DNA of 64,000 bases, from contig AYMD01000001.1 in the NCBI GenBank assembly GCA_000495735.1, positions 124,001 through 188,000 on the forward strand. The letters are read 5' to 3'. The position numbers and the translations under genes are program-made. The number at the start of each line of letters is the position of its first letter. Position 1 is the first letter of the stretch. Below the pieces are notes generated by a model. That model did no database searches. It was not told where the DNA came from and was given only the letters and a program-made list of their open reading frames with translations. The DNA comes from an uncultured Acidilobus sp. JCHS (GTDB lineage: Archaea; Thermoproteota; Thermoprotei_A; Sulfolobales; Acidilobaceae). This document shows, piece after piece, positions 34,732-60,841 of this stretch.

Positions 34732-34807
34732 CAAAGCGAACGACAGGCCTTGTCCCTAGAAGGGGATGGGGTAAAGGCTTAAACCTTCCATTAAGTTAGA
34801 TTGATTT

Positions 34808-35935
34808 TTGGCATATACGGTGCTGAGATTAACGTTTGACGAGCTAGCCTTTTTGATGGATTGCCCAGCGACACCTTTAACTCATTTATCTGTTGATAGT
34901 AAAATTTTCAGTGGAAAATTAACTCAAGCAACGTTATATGTTACCAGAGCATGTAACTTGAATTGCATTCATTGCTACATCTCAGCAGGCAAGCCTTTAA
35001 AGGATGAACTTAAAACCCATGAGTGGTTCAATGTTATAGATCAATTAAAATCATTAGGTGTTGAAGTAATTTATATCTTAGGCGGCGAGCCTTTATTAAG
35101 AAATGATATATTTGATATCATCTCGCACTCTACCTCATTAAACATCTATACTGCCATGAGTACTAATGGCACTTTAGTAGATCAAGAAGTCGCAAGAAAA
35201 CTAAAGAAATCAGGAATTCATGAGGTCCAGGTGAGCATTGATGGCCCGAATGAAAGGATAAACAGCATAATAAGGGGTGCTGGGTCATTTCAAAAGGCAA
35301 TCAATGGAGTTAAAATCCTTTTAGAAGAAGGGATCAAGACTACTATAAGTTATGTGATAACGGAGTTTAATAAAAATTATATAAGTGACATGGTCAAGCT
35401 CGCCAAGAGCCTCGGCGTAAAGACGATAAATTTCAGTCCCGTGCAGGAGTTTGGAAGGGCGAAGGTAAACAATGTAAGGTTATCAAGGAGCTCAGCAGTA
35501 GCCGTTTATAAAGAATTAAAGAAAATAAGTATGAACGAGAAAGACATAACCATAACCATTAACGGCTTTAGGTTTTACTTAGATGATTTAAGGGGAGTTT
35601 TTGAGTCACTTGTGAAGAAGGGGGTAAATGGCGATAACTACTACTCTTGTCCTGCAGGAAGGTCAAGGCTAGTTATAGACTCAAACGGCGACGTTTACGG
35701 GTGTGAGCTATTAATGCTGGAAAGCTTCAGGGAAGGCAACGTGAAAAGGGACAGCCTAAAGGACATATGGGAAAGCGGCTTTAAGATTTTCAGGGAAAAG
35801 AGGTGGGAAAAGATAAAGGAGTGCAGCGCGTGCAAGATCTCTTCGTTATGTCAGGGAGGCTGTCCGGCCAGGGCGTATAGAAATAACACCTTGTACAATA
35901 AAGACCCGCTTTGTTCATTTGGCCCTATAATATAG
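34808..35935 (+). CDS. Radical SAM/SPASM protein in an AT-rich island
   Basis: A 375-residue radical SAM enzyme with the cluster motif CNLNCIHC (Cys49, Cys53, Cys56), the GGEPLL motif, and a C-terminal SPASM domain (CPAGRSRL, YGCELL, CSACKISSLCQGGCPARAY and a final PLC). The head of about 45 residues before the first Cys is unlike the Ahb proteins in this window. SPASM enzymes mature peptides, install cofactors or modify heme precursors; the substrate here is unknown. G+C over 34861-34980 is about 34 percent by my count, against about 67 percent in 34501-34560, and codons shift to AAA, TTA, AAT and ATT. This points to recent transfer. The TTG at 34808 follows TTAAACC by about 27 bases. Confidence 0.85.
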   Translation: MAYTVLRLTFDELAFLMDCPATPLTHLSVDSKIFSGKLTQATLYVTRACNLNCIHCYISAGKPLKDELKTHEWFNVIDQLKSLGVEVIYILGGEPLLRNDIFDIISHSTSLNIYTAMSTNGTLVDQEVARKLKKSGIHEVQVSIDGPNERINSIIRGAGSFQKAINGVKILLEEGIKTTISYVITEFNKNYISDMVKLAKSLGVKTINFSPVQEFGRAKVNNVRLSRSSAVAVYKELKKISMNEKDITITINGFRFYLDDLRGVFESLVKKGVNGDNYYSCPAGRSRLVIDSNGDVYGCELLMLESFREGNVKRDSLKDIWESGFKIFREKRWEKIKECSACKISSLCQGGCPARAYRNNTLYNKDPLCSFGPII

Positions 35936-36407
35936 TGGCACCTGACCTCCTCTCCCACGCTAAAGGGTGAGGCTTTTGTTTATAATAGGGGTGAGTTATA
36001 CTGTTGGTGAGGCCGCTCTGGCTCAGCCAACAGGCTCACCAACCAGGCCAGGCGACCTAGACCGAACCTTGCAGAAGGTCGTCCCACCGCGGAGCTTCAA
36101 GGTCTGTGGTATGACGCCCAAGGCAGCTATGGCTCATAAAATCTAAGCCTCTGGGACCATGAACTCTTAAGAGCACTTAACAACATCATAAGACCGGCCC
36201 AGAAGGGCCGGGTGACCTGGGTTGGCCAAGAAGAAGAAGGAGCAGACTCAGCAGGCGCAGAAGAAGTAAGGGTTTCTCAGAAGCCCAAAGGCCTTCAACT
36301 TACTTTGTTTTTAGCTCTGACGTCTTCGGTATTGTCGTCTCTTGGTCTTATGGCGGGCTGATAGTCTTTAAGTTCTGGCTCGGTAATACTTTAGACAAGA
36401 CGGCGCG
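35936..36407 (+). ncRNA. Structured intergenic transcript candidate
   Basis: No long gene lies here. A TATA-like GTTTATAATA (35979-35988) points to a start near 36008. GTTGGTGAG at 36003-36011 can pair with CTCA-g-CCAAC (36022-36031), perfectly with CTCACCAAC (36035-36043), or, with GGCC, with GGCCT-t-CAAC at 36290-36299. A stem CCGGCCC-AGAA-GGGCCGG occupies 36194-36211, and a T-rich TTTGTTTTT at 36304-36312 could end transcription. The implied RNA of about 300 bases has the size of SRP or RNase P RNA, but I cannot find their conserved cores, and G+C is modest for a stable thermophile RNA. It might be a leader or an unknown RNA. Confidence 0.3.
36222..36269 (+). CDS. Possible 15-residue lysine/glutamine-rich peptide
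   Basis: A 15-codon ORF, MAKKKKEQTQQAQKK, starting at TTG. A textbook GGTGACC at 36211-36217 lies at good distance (GGTGA ends seven bases before TTG), and the hairpin 36194-36211 sits directly upstream. The composition recalls the N-termini of some small ribosomal proteins. It could be a true micropeptide, the leader of an attenuation system, or a relic. Short length makes chance possible. Confidence 0.3.
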   Translation: MAKKKKEQTQQAQKK

Positions 36408-45763: not shown

Positions 45764-46927
45764 TTGCACAGGTGGCCACTTGACGAGAAGCCCCTGCTGG
45801 TGTTCTGGGAGACCACGAAGGCCTGCCCCCTGGCGTGCATACACTGCAGGGCCAACGCCATAACTAGGCCGTTGCCTGGTGAGCTGAGCCACGCCGAGGC
45901 GCTAGACCTCATAAGGCAGGTCGCCGAGTTCGGCAGGCCTTACCCAGTCCTTGTCCTGACTGGCGGCGACCCACTGATGAGGTCAGACTTATGGGAGCTG
46001 GTCGAGGAGGCCAGGTCGCTCGGAATACCGGTCGCCATGGCCCCCAGCCCCTCAAGGCAGCTACTTGAGAACATTGACAACATAGTGAGGGAGGGGGTAT
46101 CGGCCGTCTCGATAAGCATAGACCACCCGGACCCAGAGGTTCACGACAGGGTCAGGAGGTACCAGGGCTCCTGGGAGGCCGCCACGACCGCGGTGAGGGA
46201 GCTCCTGAGGAGGGGGGTGAGCATCCAGGTGAACACGGCAGTCATGAGGTCAACTGTGAGGGGGCTGCCGGGCATGGCGAGGCTCCTGAGGGAGCTCGGC
46301 GTAAGGACCTGGGAGGTGTTCTACCTGGTGCCTGTCGGGAGGGCAGGTGCGGAGGAGGACTTGAGCCCCGCGGAGTGGGAGGACGTGAGCGCCTTCCTCT
46401 ACGAGGTCAGCAGGTACGGCGTGAGGGTCAGGACCTCCGAGGGGCCCATGTTCAGGAGGGTGGCCCTCCTGCTGAACTACGCCTCAAGGACAGGGGCTGA
46501 GCCCTCAGGCCTTGTCAGGACAGGTAAGCTCTACCTGGAGCTGGTGGACGAGCTCAGGAAACTGATGGGGGAGCCCGGCCCTCAGGCGCTCTTTGAGACC
46601 TCTGGCACTAGGGACGGCAAGGGGATAATCTTCATATCACATGACGGCATGGTCTACCCCAGCGGCTTCCTCCCCGTGCCCGTGGGCAGCGTCAGGAGGG
46701 GGAGGCTTGTAGACATCTACAGGGGCTCGCCCCTCCTCAGGAGGCTCAGGGCAGCCGAGCTCAGGGGCAGGTGCGGGGCCTGCGAGTTCAGGGAGGTATG
46801 CGGCGGAAGCAGGGCAAGGGCCTTCGCCTACTACGGCGACCCGCTTGCCGAGGACCCGGCCTGCGCCTACAGGCCCGGGTCGCTTAGAGCCGATGTTAAG
46901 GAGGTGCTGAGCACTTGGCAGCGCTGA
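45764..46927 (+). CDS. ahbD: AhbD-like radical SAM heme synthase
   Basis: Probable last enzyme of the siroheme-dependent heme route, turning two propionates of iron-coproporphyrin III to vinyl groups. The 387-residue protein has the radical SAM motif CPLACIHC (Cys21, Cys25, Cys28), then VLTGGDPLMRSDLWELVEEA, and a C-terminal SPASM-like set (CGACEFREVCGGSRARA and EDPAC). Within this family NirJ, AhbC and AhbD look similar, so the AhbD call rests on overall similarity and gene order. It starts a four-gene operon with ahbA-B, ahbC and a precorrin-2 dehydrogenase, each overlapping the next. The TTG at 45764 follows TATA-like CAATATTTGTAAAG (about 45724). Confidence 0.82.
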   Translation: MHRWPLDEKPLLVFWETTKACPLACIHCRANAITRPLPGELSHAEALDLIRQVAEFGRPYPVLVLTGGDPLMRSDLWELVEEARSLGIPVAMAPSPSRQLLENIDNIVREGVSAVSISIDHPDPEVHDRVRRYQGSWEAATTAVRELLRRGVSIQVNTAVMRSTVRGLPGMARLLRELGVRTWEVFYLVPVGRAGAEEDLSPAEWEDVSAFLYEVSRYGVRVRTSEGPMFRRVALLLNYASRTGAEPSGLVRTGKLYLELVDELRKLMGEPGPQALFETSGTRDGKGIIFISHDGMVYPSGFLPVPVGSVRRGRLVDIYRGSPLLRRLRAAELRGRCGACEFREVCGGSRARAFAYYGDPLAEDPACAYRPGSLRADVKEVLSTWQR

Positions 46928-47883
46928 GCGACCTTGATGTCAGGGCCCTGATGGAGCTCCAGTACAACTTCGCCTTCTGGCTCCCTGACCCCTACGCTGA
47001 GGCCTCAGCCAGGCTGGGGGTAGGCGAGGACGAGCTGCTCAAGGCGCTCTCGGGGCTCAGGGAGAGAGGCGTCCTGAAGCGCGTGGGCTTCTACGTCAAC
47101 TACAGGTCCCAGGGCGCCGAGGCAGCCCTGGTGGCCCTGAGCGTTGACGACCCAGGCCCCGTGGCCGAGGCCGTGGCTAACGATGACCTGGTGACGCACG
47201 CCTACGTCAGGGACGACCCGGACTACAGCGTGTGGCTCGTGGTTAAGAGGGGGAGCATGGACGAGATAAAGAGGTTCGCTGAGGAGATCTCGAGGCGCGT
47301 GGGCGCGAGGGACTACATAGTGCTCAGCTCTATTAGGACGTACAAGCTGAGCGTCAAGTTTGACCTTGAGAGGGGGATCTCAAGGTCAGGGCCCTACGCC
47401 ACCATAAGGCCTGACCCGCCGAGGCCTGAGTCCCTCGGCGTCACGGCAGGCCTGCTGAGGTCCCTGTCAAGGCTGCCCCTCTCGCCAATGCCTTACAGGG
47501 AGGTGGCAGCTAAGCACGGGCTCCCTGAGGGCGCGCTGGTCTCGCTGGTCCTAAGGCTTGTCGAGGCTGGCGTGCTGGCGGACCCGGGCGCGGCCATAGA
47601 CGGCGAGTCGGTGGGCTTCAGGTTCAACGGGATGGTGGTCATGGAGCCCTCCGGCTCGCCCGAGGAGCTCTGCAGGGCGGCAGCGGGGTTCCCTTACTCA
47701 ACCCACGTTGTCCTCAGGGGGAGCAGCAGGCCCTCCTGGAGGTACCCATGTTACGCCATGATACACGCCGTCAGGAGGGAGACAGTCGAGGAGGCGGCCG
47801 AGGAGCTGTCAAGGCTCGCAGGGGCACGCTCGTACAGGGTGATCTTCAGCCTCGGCAACCTTAAGCCAGGCGTGACAAGGTGA
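46915..47883 (+). CDS. ahbAB: Siroheme decarboxylase, AhbA-AhbB fusion
   Basis: Removes two acetate carboxyls of siroheme to give 12,18-didecarboxysiroheme. In most organisms AhbA and AhbB are separate Lrp/AsnC-like proteins of about 150-190 residues that form a complex. This 322-residue protein holds both in one chain. Domain one (1-150) starts DLDVRALMELQYNFAFWLPD, has a winged helix, then VGFYVNYRSQGAEAALVAL. Domain two (about 165-322) repeats with LLRSLSRLPLSPMPYREVAA and ends in FNGMVVMEPSGSPEELC and YPCYAMIHAVRR. The His/Tyr-rich loops (THAYVRDD and STHVVLRG) match the substrate-binding regions of the family. It overlaps ahbD by 13 bp and ahbC by 4 bp. Confidence 0.85.
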   Translation: MAALSDLDVRALMELQYNFAFWLPDPYAEASARLGVGEDELLKALSGLRERGVLKRVGFYVNYRSQGAEAALVALSVDDPGPVAEAVANDDLVTHAYVRDDPDYSVWLVVKRGSMDEIKRFAEEISRRVGARDYIVLSSIRTYKLSVKFDLERGISRSGPYATIRPDPPRPESLGVTAGLLRSLSRLPLSPMPYREVAAKHGLPEGALVSLVLRLVEAGVLADPGAAIDGESVGFRFNGMVVMEPSGSPEELCRAAAGFPYSTHVVLRGSSRPSWRYPCYAMIHAVRRETVEEAAEELSRLAGARSYRVIFSLGNLKPGVTR

Positions 47884-49061
47884 GGGGCTTGATACCCGTC
47901 AGCGTCATGGTCACAGGCAGGGGTACCGTCTCGGAGAGGATAAAGGGCCGCTACGGCCCTGGGAGGCCCTCGGCGTTCTCAAGCGAGCTCAGGCCCGTCG
48001 TCTTCTGGAACATAACCTACCTCTGCAACCTGAGGTGCGCCCACTGCTACATCAACGCAGGCCCTGAGCCGAGGAGGGAGGAGCTCAGCAGGGACGACCT
48101 GCTCAGGGTTGCCAGGGAGATAGCTGACCTGGGCCTCCCGCTCGTGATATTCAGCGGCGGCGAGCCGCTGATGAGGAGGGACTTCTGGGACGTGGCCCAG
48201 GAGCTCTCCGGCAGGGACAGGCCCAAGCTCGCGCTGAGCACCAACGGCACGCTGATAACGAGGGACGTCGCCAGGAGGCTGTCATCGCTGAGCTTCAGCT
48301 ACGTCGGCGTTTCCCTCGACAGCCTGGTGGCGGAGCTTCACGATAGGTTCAGGGGAGTCAAGGGGGCCTTTGAGGCGACCATTAGCGGTATAAGGAACGC
48401 CGTGGAGGCAGGGCTTGACGTTGGGATAAGGACGACCGTGACCCGCTGGAACTACGTGGAGGCCCCCGGCATGGTGGACCTGGCATACAGGCTGGGGGCC
48501 AGGAGGGTCAGCTACTACATACTTGACAGCATTGGGAGGGCCAGGGCCATAGTCAACGATCTGCCCTCACATGAGCAGCTGAGGGGGTTCACGGAGGCCC
48601 TCATAGGGAAGGCGAGGGAGTACGAGGGGAAGGTCGAGATAGAGGTCGTGAGGTCGAACTTCATAGGCATATACCTGGCCGACAGGCTCTCAGGGACTGT
48701 CGAGGAGTTCCAAGGTCACCTCTCCCTTATCAGCGGCCAGGGCGACTGCGGGAGGAAGACCATCAGCATATACCCTGATGGTACCGTGAGGCCGTGCCAG
48801 TTCATAGACCAGTTCGTAATAGGGGACTTGAGGAGGCAGGGCCTGAGGGAGGTCCTGAGCCCCCAGAACGAGGCCCTCGCCAGGTTCGTCAGGCTCCACG
48901 AGGGCCTGAGGGGACCGAGGTGTGGCAAGTGCCCGTTTAAGGTCGTCTGCGGCGGAGGGAGCAGGGGGAGGGCTGAGGCCCTGACGGGGGACTTCTGGGG
49001 GGACGACCCCCTCTGCTTCATTGACCCGTGGCAGGTAGCCAGGAGGTGGGAAATGGCTTGA
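47880..49061 (+). CDS. ahbC: AhbC-like radical SAM 12,18-didecarboxysiroheme deacetylase
   Basis: Removes the two acetate side chains of didecarboxysiroheme to give iron-coproporphyrin III. The 393-residue protein has CNLRCAHC (Cys49, Cys53, Cys56), FSGGEPLMRRDFWDVAQEL, and a C-terminal SPASM-like Cys set with CGRKTISIYPDGTVRPC, CGKCPFKVVCGGGSRGRA and the final DDPLC. Its head, PVVFWNITYLCNLRCAHCYI, is characteristic of the AhbC/NirJ branch. It lies third in the operon and its end overlaps the precorrin-2 dehydrogenase gene by 34 bp. Confidence 0.85.
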   Translation: MRGLIPVSVMVTGRGTVSERIKGRYGPGRPSAFSSELRPVVFWNITYLCNLRCAHCYINAGPEPRREELSRDDLLRVAREIADLGLPLVIFSGGEPLMRRDFWDVAQELSGRDRPKLALSTNGTLITRDVARRLSSLSFSYVGVSLDSLVAELHDRFRGVKGAFEATISGIRNAVEAGLDVGIRTTVTRWNYVEAPGMVDLAYRLGARRVSYYILDSIGRARAIVNDLPSHEQLRGFTEALIGKAREYEGKVEIEVVRSNFIGIYLADRLSGTVEEFQGHLSLISGQGDCGRKTISIYPDGTVRPCQFIDQFVIGDLRRQGLREVLSPQNEALARFVRLHEGLRGPRCGKCPFKVVCGGGSRGRAEALTGDFWGDDPLCFIDPWQVARRWEMA

Positions 49062-60735: not shown

Positions 60736-60841
60736 GGGCCCGTAGTCCAGCCTGGTAGGATGCGGGGTTCACCTACGCCGAGGCCAGGCAGGTGCCCGAC
60801 TCGGGTCCCTGTGGTCGGGGGTTCAAATCCCCCCGGGCCCA
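60736..60841 (+). tRNA. tRNA-Pro(CGG) with a 32-base intron
   Basis: Acceptor strands GGGCCCG (60736-60742) and CGGGCCC (60834-60840), discriminator A at 60841 and genomic CCA at 60842-60844. The T arm is GGGGG-TTCAAAT-CCCCC. Removing 60769-60800 joins CGGGGT to TCGGGTCCCTG, making the anticodon stem CGGGG/CCCTG around loop TTCGGGT, anticodon CGG. At the ends of the intron CGGG pairs with CCCG between three-base bulges GTT and ACT, and CACCT pairs with AGGTG inside: a bulge-helix-bulge site for the archaeal splicing enzyme. The cut places the intron between positions 32 and 33, not the common 37/38. A TATA-like element lies about 30 bases upstream. Confidence 0.85.

Follow-up and report, generated by a model that had tools for sequence, protein, structure and literature searches.

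The stretch of DNA analyzed here (the window; 64,000 nucleotides of contig C1 of the 1.48-Mb archaeal genome G000) contains three unrelated things lying side by side, according to an explanation that, taken as a whole, we hold with considerable confidence: a transferred radical SAM/SPASM enzyme gene, the relic end of an IS605/TnpB-type element and a native micropeptide gene. The enzyme appears to be an ordinary case of horizontal transfer; the micropeptide is the lasting lead and matters more than the enzyme. In what follows, g1 is the genus of the window, g5 a Caldisphaera-like genus and f11 a Sulfolobaceae-like family, and the distributions of enzyme and micropeptide were analyzed in a sample of 398 genomes of the phylum. 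We take G003 to be Acidilobus saccharovorans, G007 Caldisphaera lagunensis, G218 Sulfolobus acidocaldarius DSM 639, G226 Sulfurisphaera tokodaii, G272 Caldivirga maquilingensis, and G303 and G334 Vulcanisaeta species.

Origin of the enzyme gene and its insertion site

The enzyme gene (34808-35935, plus strand) starts with TTG, encodes 375 amino acids and matched the Pfam families Radical_SAM (4.3e-34) and SPASM (2.9e-12). A TATA-like box, CTTAAA, can be read directly about 26 nt 5' of the start codon (34778-34783, plus strand), with GATAAA at the corresponding place upstream of the enzyme in G002, and the transcript is predicted to be leaderless. The core CX3CX2C motif corresponds to C49, C53 and C56; comparison of six orthologues revealed an N-terminal motif, C19-PATPL, and invariant SPASM cysteines (C281, C299, C339, C342, C348, C352 and C369). 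With 35.7, 38.9 and 44.7% G+C in its successive thirds (39.8% overall), the gene is the lowest of 52 non-overlapping window ORFs, which average 60.6% (sd 4.1) and among which the next lowest has 54.1%. It is again the extreme in GC3, at 44% where the window averages 77% (sd 7). An earlier note on this DNA had singled the gene out as an AT-rich outlier, which both measures bear out; its contrast was sound for the first part of the gene, but the two thirds G+C that it gave for the adjoining upstream DNA was slightly high (about 58-60% directly 5' of the gene).

Close homologues of the enzyme were found in G002 (89% identical), in three g5 genomes (57-59%) and in G003, whose copy (58.6% G+C) was merely 46% identical. 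Two native neighbour genes showed the opposite order, the 2-hydroxyacid dehydrogenase being 78% identical in G003 vs 69-71% in g5 and the nitrilase 69% vs 56%. A tree of 16 enzyme sequences placed the window copy and that of G002 as sister to the AT-rich g5 copies (support 100/100) and paired the G003 copy with a Thermoproteus-like sequence (97/95). Uniting all three g1 copies in one clade was rejected (AU p=3.6e-5). Alternatively, the gene could have been inherited vertically and owe its low G+C to drift or selection acting locally. This reading could draw on the speed with which composition changes (39.8 vs 48.7% G+C between two g1 copies), but the rejected g1 clade, the distant G003 copy and the reversed identities of the two neighbours all speak against it, and we consider it highly improbable. 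Profile search of the 398 genomes added Vulcanisaeta-, Caldivirga- and Thermoproteus-like carriers and confined the orthologues to g1, g5, f34 and f25 genomes; all other matches scored far lower and had no alignment to the N-terminal CPATPL region, and a search for related loci among genome contigs yielded nothing but paralogues of 28-34% identity. The earlier note had proposed a transfer, with vertical placement of the enzyme within its order as the counter-case. Composition, tree, patchy distribution, differing loci between genomes and empty sites in two congeners all favored transfer, and the phylogeny rejected vertical placement.

The gene would have been acquired from an AT-rich Caldisphaera-like archaeon, a donor suggested by a 16-sequence tree that contains two long branches. 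Its G+C content lies near that of the surroundings in every orthologue but those of G000 (39.8 vs 59%) and G002 (48.7 vs 60%). Because the g5 copies have 27-28% G+C, the two g1 copies would seem to be at different stages of amelioration, which has been uneven, as the G000 and G002 genes are 79% identical in the first part and 89-92% in the last.

Alignment of G000, G001 and G003 showed that 34732-36105 (boundaries approximate), which includes the enzyme gene, the mobile-element relic and a strongly folding stretch, is missing from the enzyme-free sites of the latter two, which retain the order 2-hydroxyacid dehydrogenase, micro-ORF and nitrilase. A 90-bp remnant of the enzyme 3' end was found on another contig (G000:C9:20532-20618) beside an acyl-CoA dehydrogenase gene, and the enzyme copy of G002 adjoins a fragment of the 3' end of that same gene. 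The C9 remnant site and the G002 enzyme site have the downstream flank of the enzyme in common, and the likeness of the window to both ends at 35941. The C9 remnant is evidence of relocation: the gene would later have moved within the genome from a site adjoining the acyl-CoA dehydrogenase gene.

The flank of the enzyme is abutted at 35942-35973 (minus strand) by the right end of an IS605/TnpB-type element (GCCTCACCCTTTAG...GAGGAGGTCAG). These 32 nt share about 89% identity with ends located behind TnpB-type genes at G000:C1:363 kb and G007:C1:318 kb; intact elements and the window have the right-end sequence in common. In G000 and G007 a TnpB-type gene (Pfam PF07282) precedes the end, whereas tnpB is gone at the window site; we call the end a relic because no tnpA or tnpB ORF occurs in 35936-36407. 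It would mark the intergenic stretch as an insertion site. In G002 (C1:274000-285000), similar ends lie after the 2-hydroxyacid dehydrogenase and before the micro-gene, flanking an inversion that parts the micro-gene from its usual neighbours.

The gap downstream of the enzyme (35936-36407) contains no ORF of at least 80 amino acids, in agreement with the earlier description of 470 bases without a long gene. That description had also called the gap structured, which held for 35983-36130 (z = -2.7) and for the hairpin region discussed below (z = -2.0), but the gap as a whole was unremarkable (z = -1.5; 7 of 100 shuffles gave folding energies as low). The strongly folding stretch missing from G001 and G003 (35983-36105, z = -2.7) occurs in this genome only, having no match among 34 relatives in a DNA search; it has a long stem and is possibly the inside of the decayed mobile element. 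Rfam searches of the 470 bases at gathering and relaxed thresholds returned nothing credible, and ARAGORN found no tRNA there. Elsewhere in the window, Rfam but not ARAGORN recovered a 106-nt tRNA at 60736-60841, whose anticodon arm holds about 36 unmodelled bases that suggest an intron.

The micropeptide gene and its probable wider family

Conservation of hairpin and ORF in three congeners is much stronger evidence than the folding energy. Using the gap as a query for DNA search, we found 36193-36270 matched in all three congeners, and the elements that the earlier note had read here (hairpin, Shine-Dalgarno site, 15-codon ORF and T-rich end) are all present. The gene (36222-36269, plus strand) has a TTG start, encodes MAKKKKEQTQQAQKK (15 amino acids) and is conserved in all four g1 members, in a second genus and in a wider family. 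All its flanking elements lie on the plus strand. An upstream element, GTATGACGCC (36109-36118), is similar in G002 and G003 according to alignments, and a palindromic promoter box, CTCTTAAGAG (36164-36173), has a core, TCTTAAGA, that is invariant in an alignment of seven genomes from two genera (g1 and g5); ATAAA precedes the box in six of the seven, the exception being the window genome. An 18-nt hairpin 5' of the start codon, CCGGCCC-AGAA-GGGCCGG (36194-36211), was recognized by folding and alignment, and its GGCC-loop-GGCC core is kept in 7/7 genomes, with variable loops and little covariation. The Shine-Dalgarno sequence GGTGA (36211-36215), 6 nt 5' of the start codon, is invariant in 7/7, and the reading frame is likewise kept across these g1 and g5 genomes. 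A T-rich end read directly at 36304-36312, TTTGTTTTT, is the probable terminator.

In G001 and G003 the micro-ORF is flanked by the 2-hydroxyacid dehydrogenase gene on one side and the nitrilase gene on the other, and the enzyme is absent. Besides MAKKKKEQTQQAQKK in the window, the g1 peptides are MAKKKKSEQQTSGEKK, MAKKKKTEQQGEQKK and MAKKKKTAEQQGEQKK in the congeners; most g1 differences involving the window copy are nonsynonymous. In g5, MAKGKKAKKEEGASSEKK or a close relative lies upstream of the nitrilase gene. Together these comparisons indicate that the micro-ORF is native, coding and conserved, and that the micropeptide family is conserved by synteny in two genera. We read 36109-36312 as a native gene for the micropeptide that has a promoter of its own and was untouched by the insertion.

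Pattern searches showed that Acidilobus-, Caldisphaera-, Sulfolobus-, Caldivirga- and Thermoproteus-like genomes encode peptides of the form MAKKKK-[E/Q/G-rich]-KK, 15-22 residues long, including MAKKKKEGQGQQQQQGGSQKK in G224 and G226, MAKKKKEQGGQQQQSGGEQKKK in G210, VAKKKKTTEEKKEGGQQQKK in Caldivirga-like genomes, MAKKKKEEKKEQQQKK in G297 and VAKKKKEEGTQEKKKQ in G344. The window gene has the features by which we define the proposed family: a short ORF with an M-A-K-x-K-K start, a middle rich in E, Q or G and an end rich in Lys, its own promoter and no conserved partner gene. T-rich runs lie 3' of most homologues and the neighbours vary between genera, so the genes stand alone. A reversed-pattern control gave no match in 229 genomes and none in 398; a looser pattern gave some control matches, and its hits were counted only when in frame and of family composition.

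Synonymous to nonsynonymous ratios were 2:0, 4:0 and 4:0 in the G224-G226 trio, whose 10 substitutions, all synonymous, are pairwise counts and so not independent, and 5:1 in another f11 pair (expected without selection, 16-19% synonymous overall and 17-19% for the trio). Codon-position counts across all micropeptides were set aside because the search pattern fixed the first two codon positions, and synonymous counts and DNA-similarity matches were used instead. It is conceivable that the ORF is untranslated and that a hairpin-bearing small RNA is what has been conserved, with MAKKKK as a by-product; conservation of hairpin and promoter box and the very small size of the ORF would fit. We regard this as very unlikely, given the synonymous bias in f11, the retention of start, stop and frame over 15-22 codons despite indels, which come in multiples of three, and the restriction of the hairpin core to g1 and g5, beyond which the peptide persists.

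The micropeptides probably span several orders of Thermoproteota, judging from sequence comparison; being of low complexity, they are less surely homologous between orders than within families. Homology between orders is likely rather than proven, because part of the sequence was set by the search pattern. Alternatively, convergence of low-complexity ORFs might have produced the MAKKKK peptides separately in different orders: outside g1/g5 some of the likeness is imposed by the pattern, which demanded Lys codons at set positions, and the genome context differs from order to order. However, most members have a common layout (A2, K3-K6, an E/Q/G middle and terminal KK), and the stand-alone genes with T-rich ends and the empty reversed-pattern control also argue for one family; we regard convergence as rather unlikely, though far from negligible. 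No match to the micropeptides was found in PDB or Pfam, nor were the peptide strings found in a literature search. Another Lys-rich ORF, of 19 codons (LAKAKKGSKKKRSGCKRKK in G236, contig C7), is kept in G236, G264 and G278, which belong to one genus, and may be a separate micropeptide.

We tentatively propose that the peptide is a free polycation with ribosomes, RNA or DNA as its binding partners, a reading that falls a little short of an even chance. The broader proposal, an ancient and unrecorded Thermoproteota family (MAKKKK-[EQG]n-KK, 15-22 aa) of abundant free polycations on ribosomes, RNA or chromatin, present also in Sulfolobus acidocaldarius, is possible and somewhat less probable. Should these peptides form a single family, several archaeal orders would have in common a conserved gene that falls under the size limit of standard gene callers. 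MAKKKKEQQQSGQQSGGQKK occurs in G218 and G219; in the former, taken here as the S. acidocaldarius DSM 639 genome, the ORF lies at 805,746-805,808 (plus strand), and this tractable host permits a direct test of the micropeptide. For the same species, a published study gives 95 putative unannotated small protein genes (PMC12817955).

Enzyme and peptide in other genomes

The earlier note had further suggested a possible transferred peptide-maturation cassette, with the micropeptide or an unseen precursor as substrate; in the form considered here, the SPASM enzyme would act on the 15-residue peptide encoded beside it, the two having arrived together. Adjacency in the window genome, a predicted fold that most resembles SPASM enzymes acting on peptides (SuiB, SkfB, PqqE and anSME among them), and the presence of both genes in 9 of the 17 sampled enzyme-bearing genomes would favor such a pairing. 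In the whole sample, full-length or partial orthologues of the enzyme occurred in 17/398 genomes, the MAKKKK-type micropeptide in 20/398 and both in 9, which is above a random draw, with both confined to related thermophiles and the micropeptide sought by a strict pattern. However, the two are close together only in the window genome; elsewhere they lie 19 kb to >1 Mb apart (19-28 kb, on one contig, in Caldivirga-like genomes) or on different contigs. Moreover, the peptide occurs where the enzyme is lacking in 11 genomes of the sample (seven f11 genomes, G344, G444, G322 and G528, the last 67% complete), as it does in G001 (84% complete; outside the 398-genome sample), whereas Vulcanisaeta-like genomes have the enzyme and no clear peptide. 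With the micro-ORF also native at the enzyme-free sites of G001 and G003, a cassette is extremely unlikely.

The neighbourhoods of the enzyme point the same way. The note had advised looking for the gene and a short ORF together in other genomes, and had named homologues always lacking a short peptide as the opposing outcome. The 13 other neighbourhoods contained no short ORF conserved across genera, and as regards the peptide link that opposing outcome was what we found; among all 14, no short ORF within 400 bp of the enzyme was conserved across genera. The radical SAM core and SPASM auxiliary-cluster cysteines expected of a RiPP cassette are present, but a precursor gene conserved beside the maturase was not seen in the 14 neighbourhoods. 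Synteny around the enzyme across genera was absent, with no conserved neighbour. No RRE/PqqD-like domain was detected in the enzyme or in the ten g5 neighbours scanned; not every RiPP system needs such a domain. The 15-codon micropeptide is real and conserved far more widely than had been supposed, but it is not the partner of the enzyme, and the way in which a plausible one-genome cassette fell apart upon comparison with congeners is a caution.

Enzyme function and nearest known systems

At its core cluster the enzyme presumably generates a 5'-deoxyadenosyl radical; two auxiliary SPASM clusters, with ligands assigned by sequence and the fold by prediction, would oxidise a substrate encoded away from the enzyme. 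One possibility is a trans-acting maturase of a peptide or protein encoded elsewhere, acting in Caldisphaera-like genomes with an upstream TldD/TldE protease pair. The complete seven-cysteine SPASM domain fits this, as do the closest solved folds, which are RiPP or protein maturases, and so does a gene order of tldD, tldE, an unknown 280-aa gene and the radical SAM gene in three g5 genomes (G007:C1:985000-1004000), which hints at peptide processing. But the order is not kept elsewhere: tldD is located elsewhere in g1 genomes, and Vulcanisaeta-, Caldivirga- and Thermoproteus-like genomes have other genes beside the enzyme. The protein also reaches no curated RiPP-maturase cut-off and has no RRE or PqqD-like domain, which leaves this reading on the unlikely side. 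The 280-aa protein, present in g5 but not in g1, matched nothing in Pfam, and a literature search on the enzyme subfamily with Vulcanisaeta/Caldivirga or TldD found nothing relevant.

It seems slightly more plausible, if still less than probable, that thermophilic archaea use the enzyme for a cofactor or metabolite, whether heme, mycofactocin-like or other. The variable neighbourhood is as expected of a stand-alone metabolic enzyme, and the best curated models are of this kind: the mycofactocin maturase MftC (TIGR03962; 190.3 bits, aligned over 42-372), followed by the heme-type AhbD and NirJ (NirJ2) models of the same superfamily (176.9 and 168 bits). However, these scores lie far under the cut-offs (265, 500 and 500 bits), two other radical SAM/SPASM genes of the window (at 45764 and 47880) match the heme-type models better, and the enzyme neighbourhoods examined contained no recognizable mycofactocin gene set. 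The comparison with RiPP-maturase and heme/cofactor SPASM families called for earlier therefore reached no curated cut-off, and the subfamily with N-terminal CPATPL (Acidilobus-, Caldisphaera-, Vulcanisaeta-, Caldivirga- and Thermoproteus-like) is without a function in curated families. Prokaryotic viperin was rejected as a candidate, as its profile matched the shared core only (residues 43-221) and a SPASM domain is present. As for the other two window genes, 45764-46927 passed the TIGR04053 cut-off (481 bits), and 47880-49061 resembles NirJ1/AhbC, under cut-off.

Finally, an AlphaFold model built from a 20-sequence alignment (pLDDT 82.7; first 33 residues unreliable) had SuiB, SkfB, PqqE and anSME as its nearest solved folds, with a TM score of 0.76 over 348 columns for SuiB. 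Like these proteins, the enzyme has the CX3CX2C core and seven SPASM cysteines. Unlike them, with about 20% identity, it has neither a fused RRE domain nor an adjacent precursor, and instead carries a 40-residue N-terminal extension with the conserved CPATPL motif.
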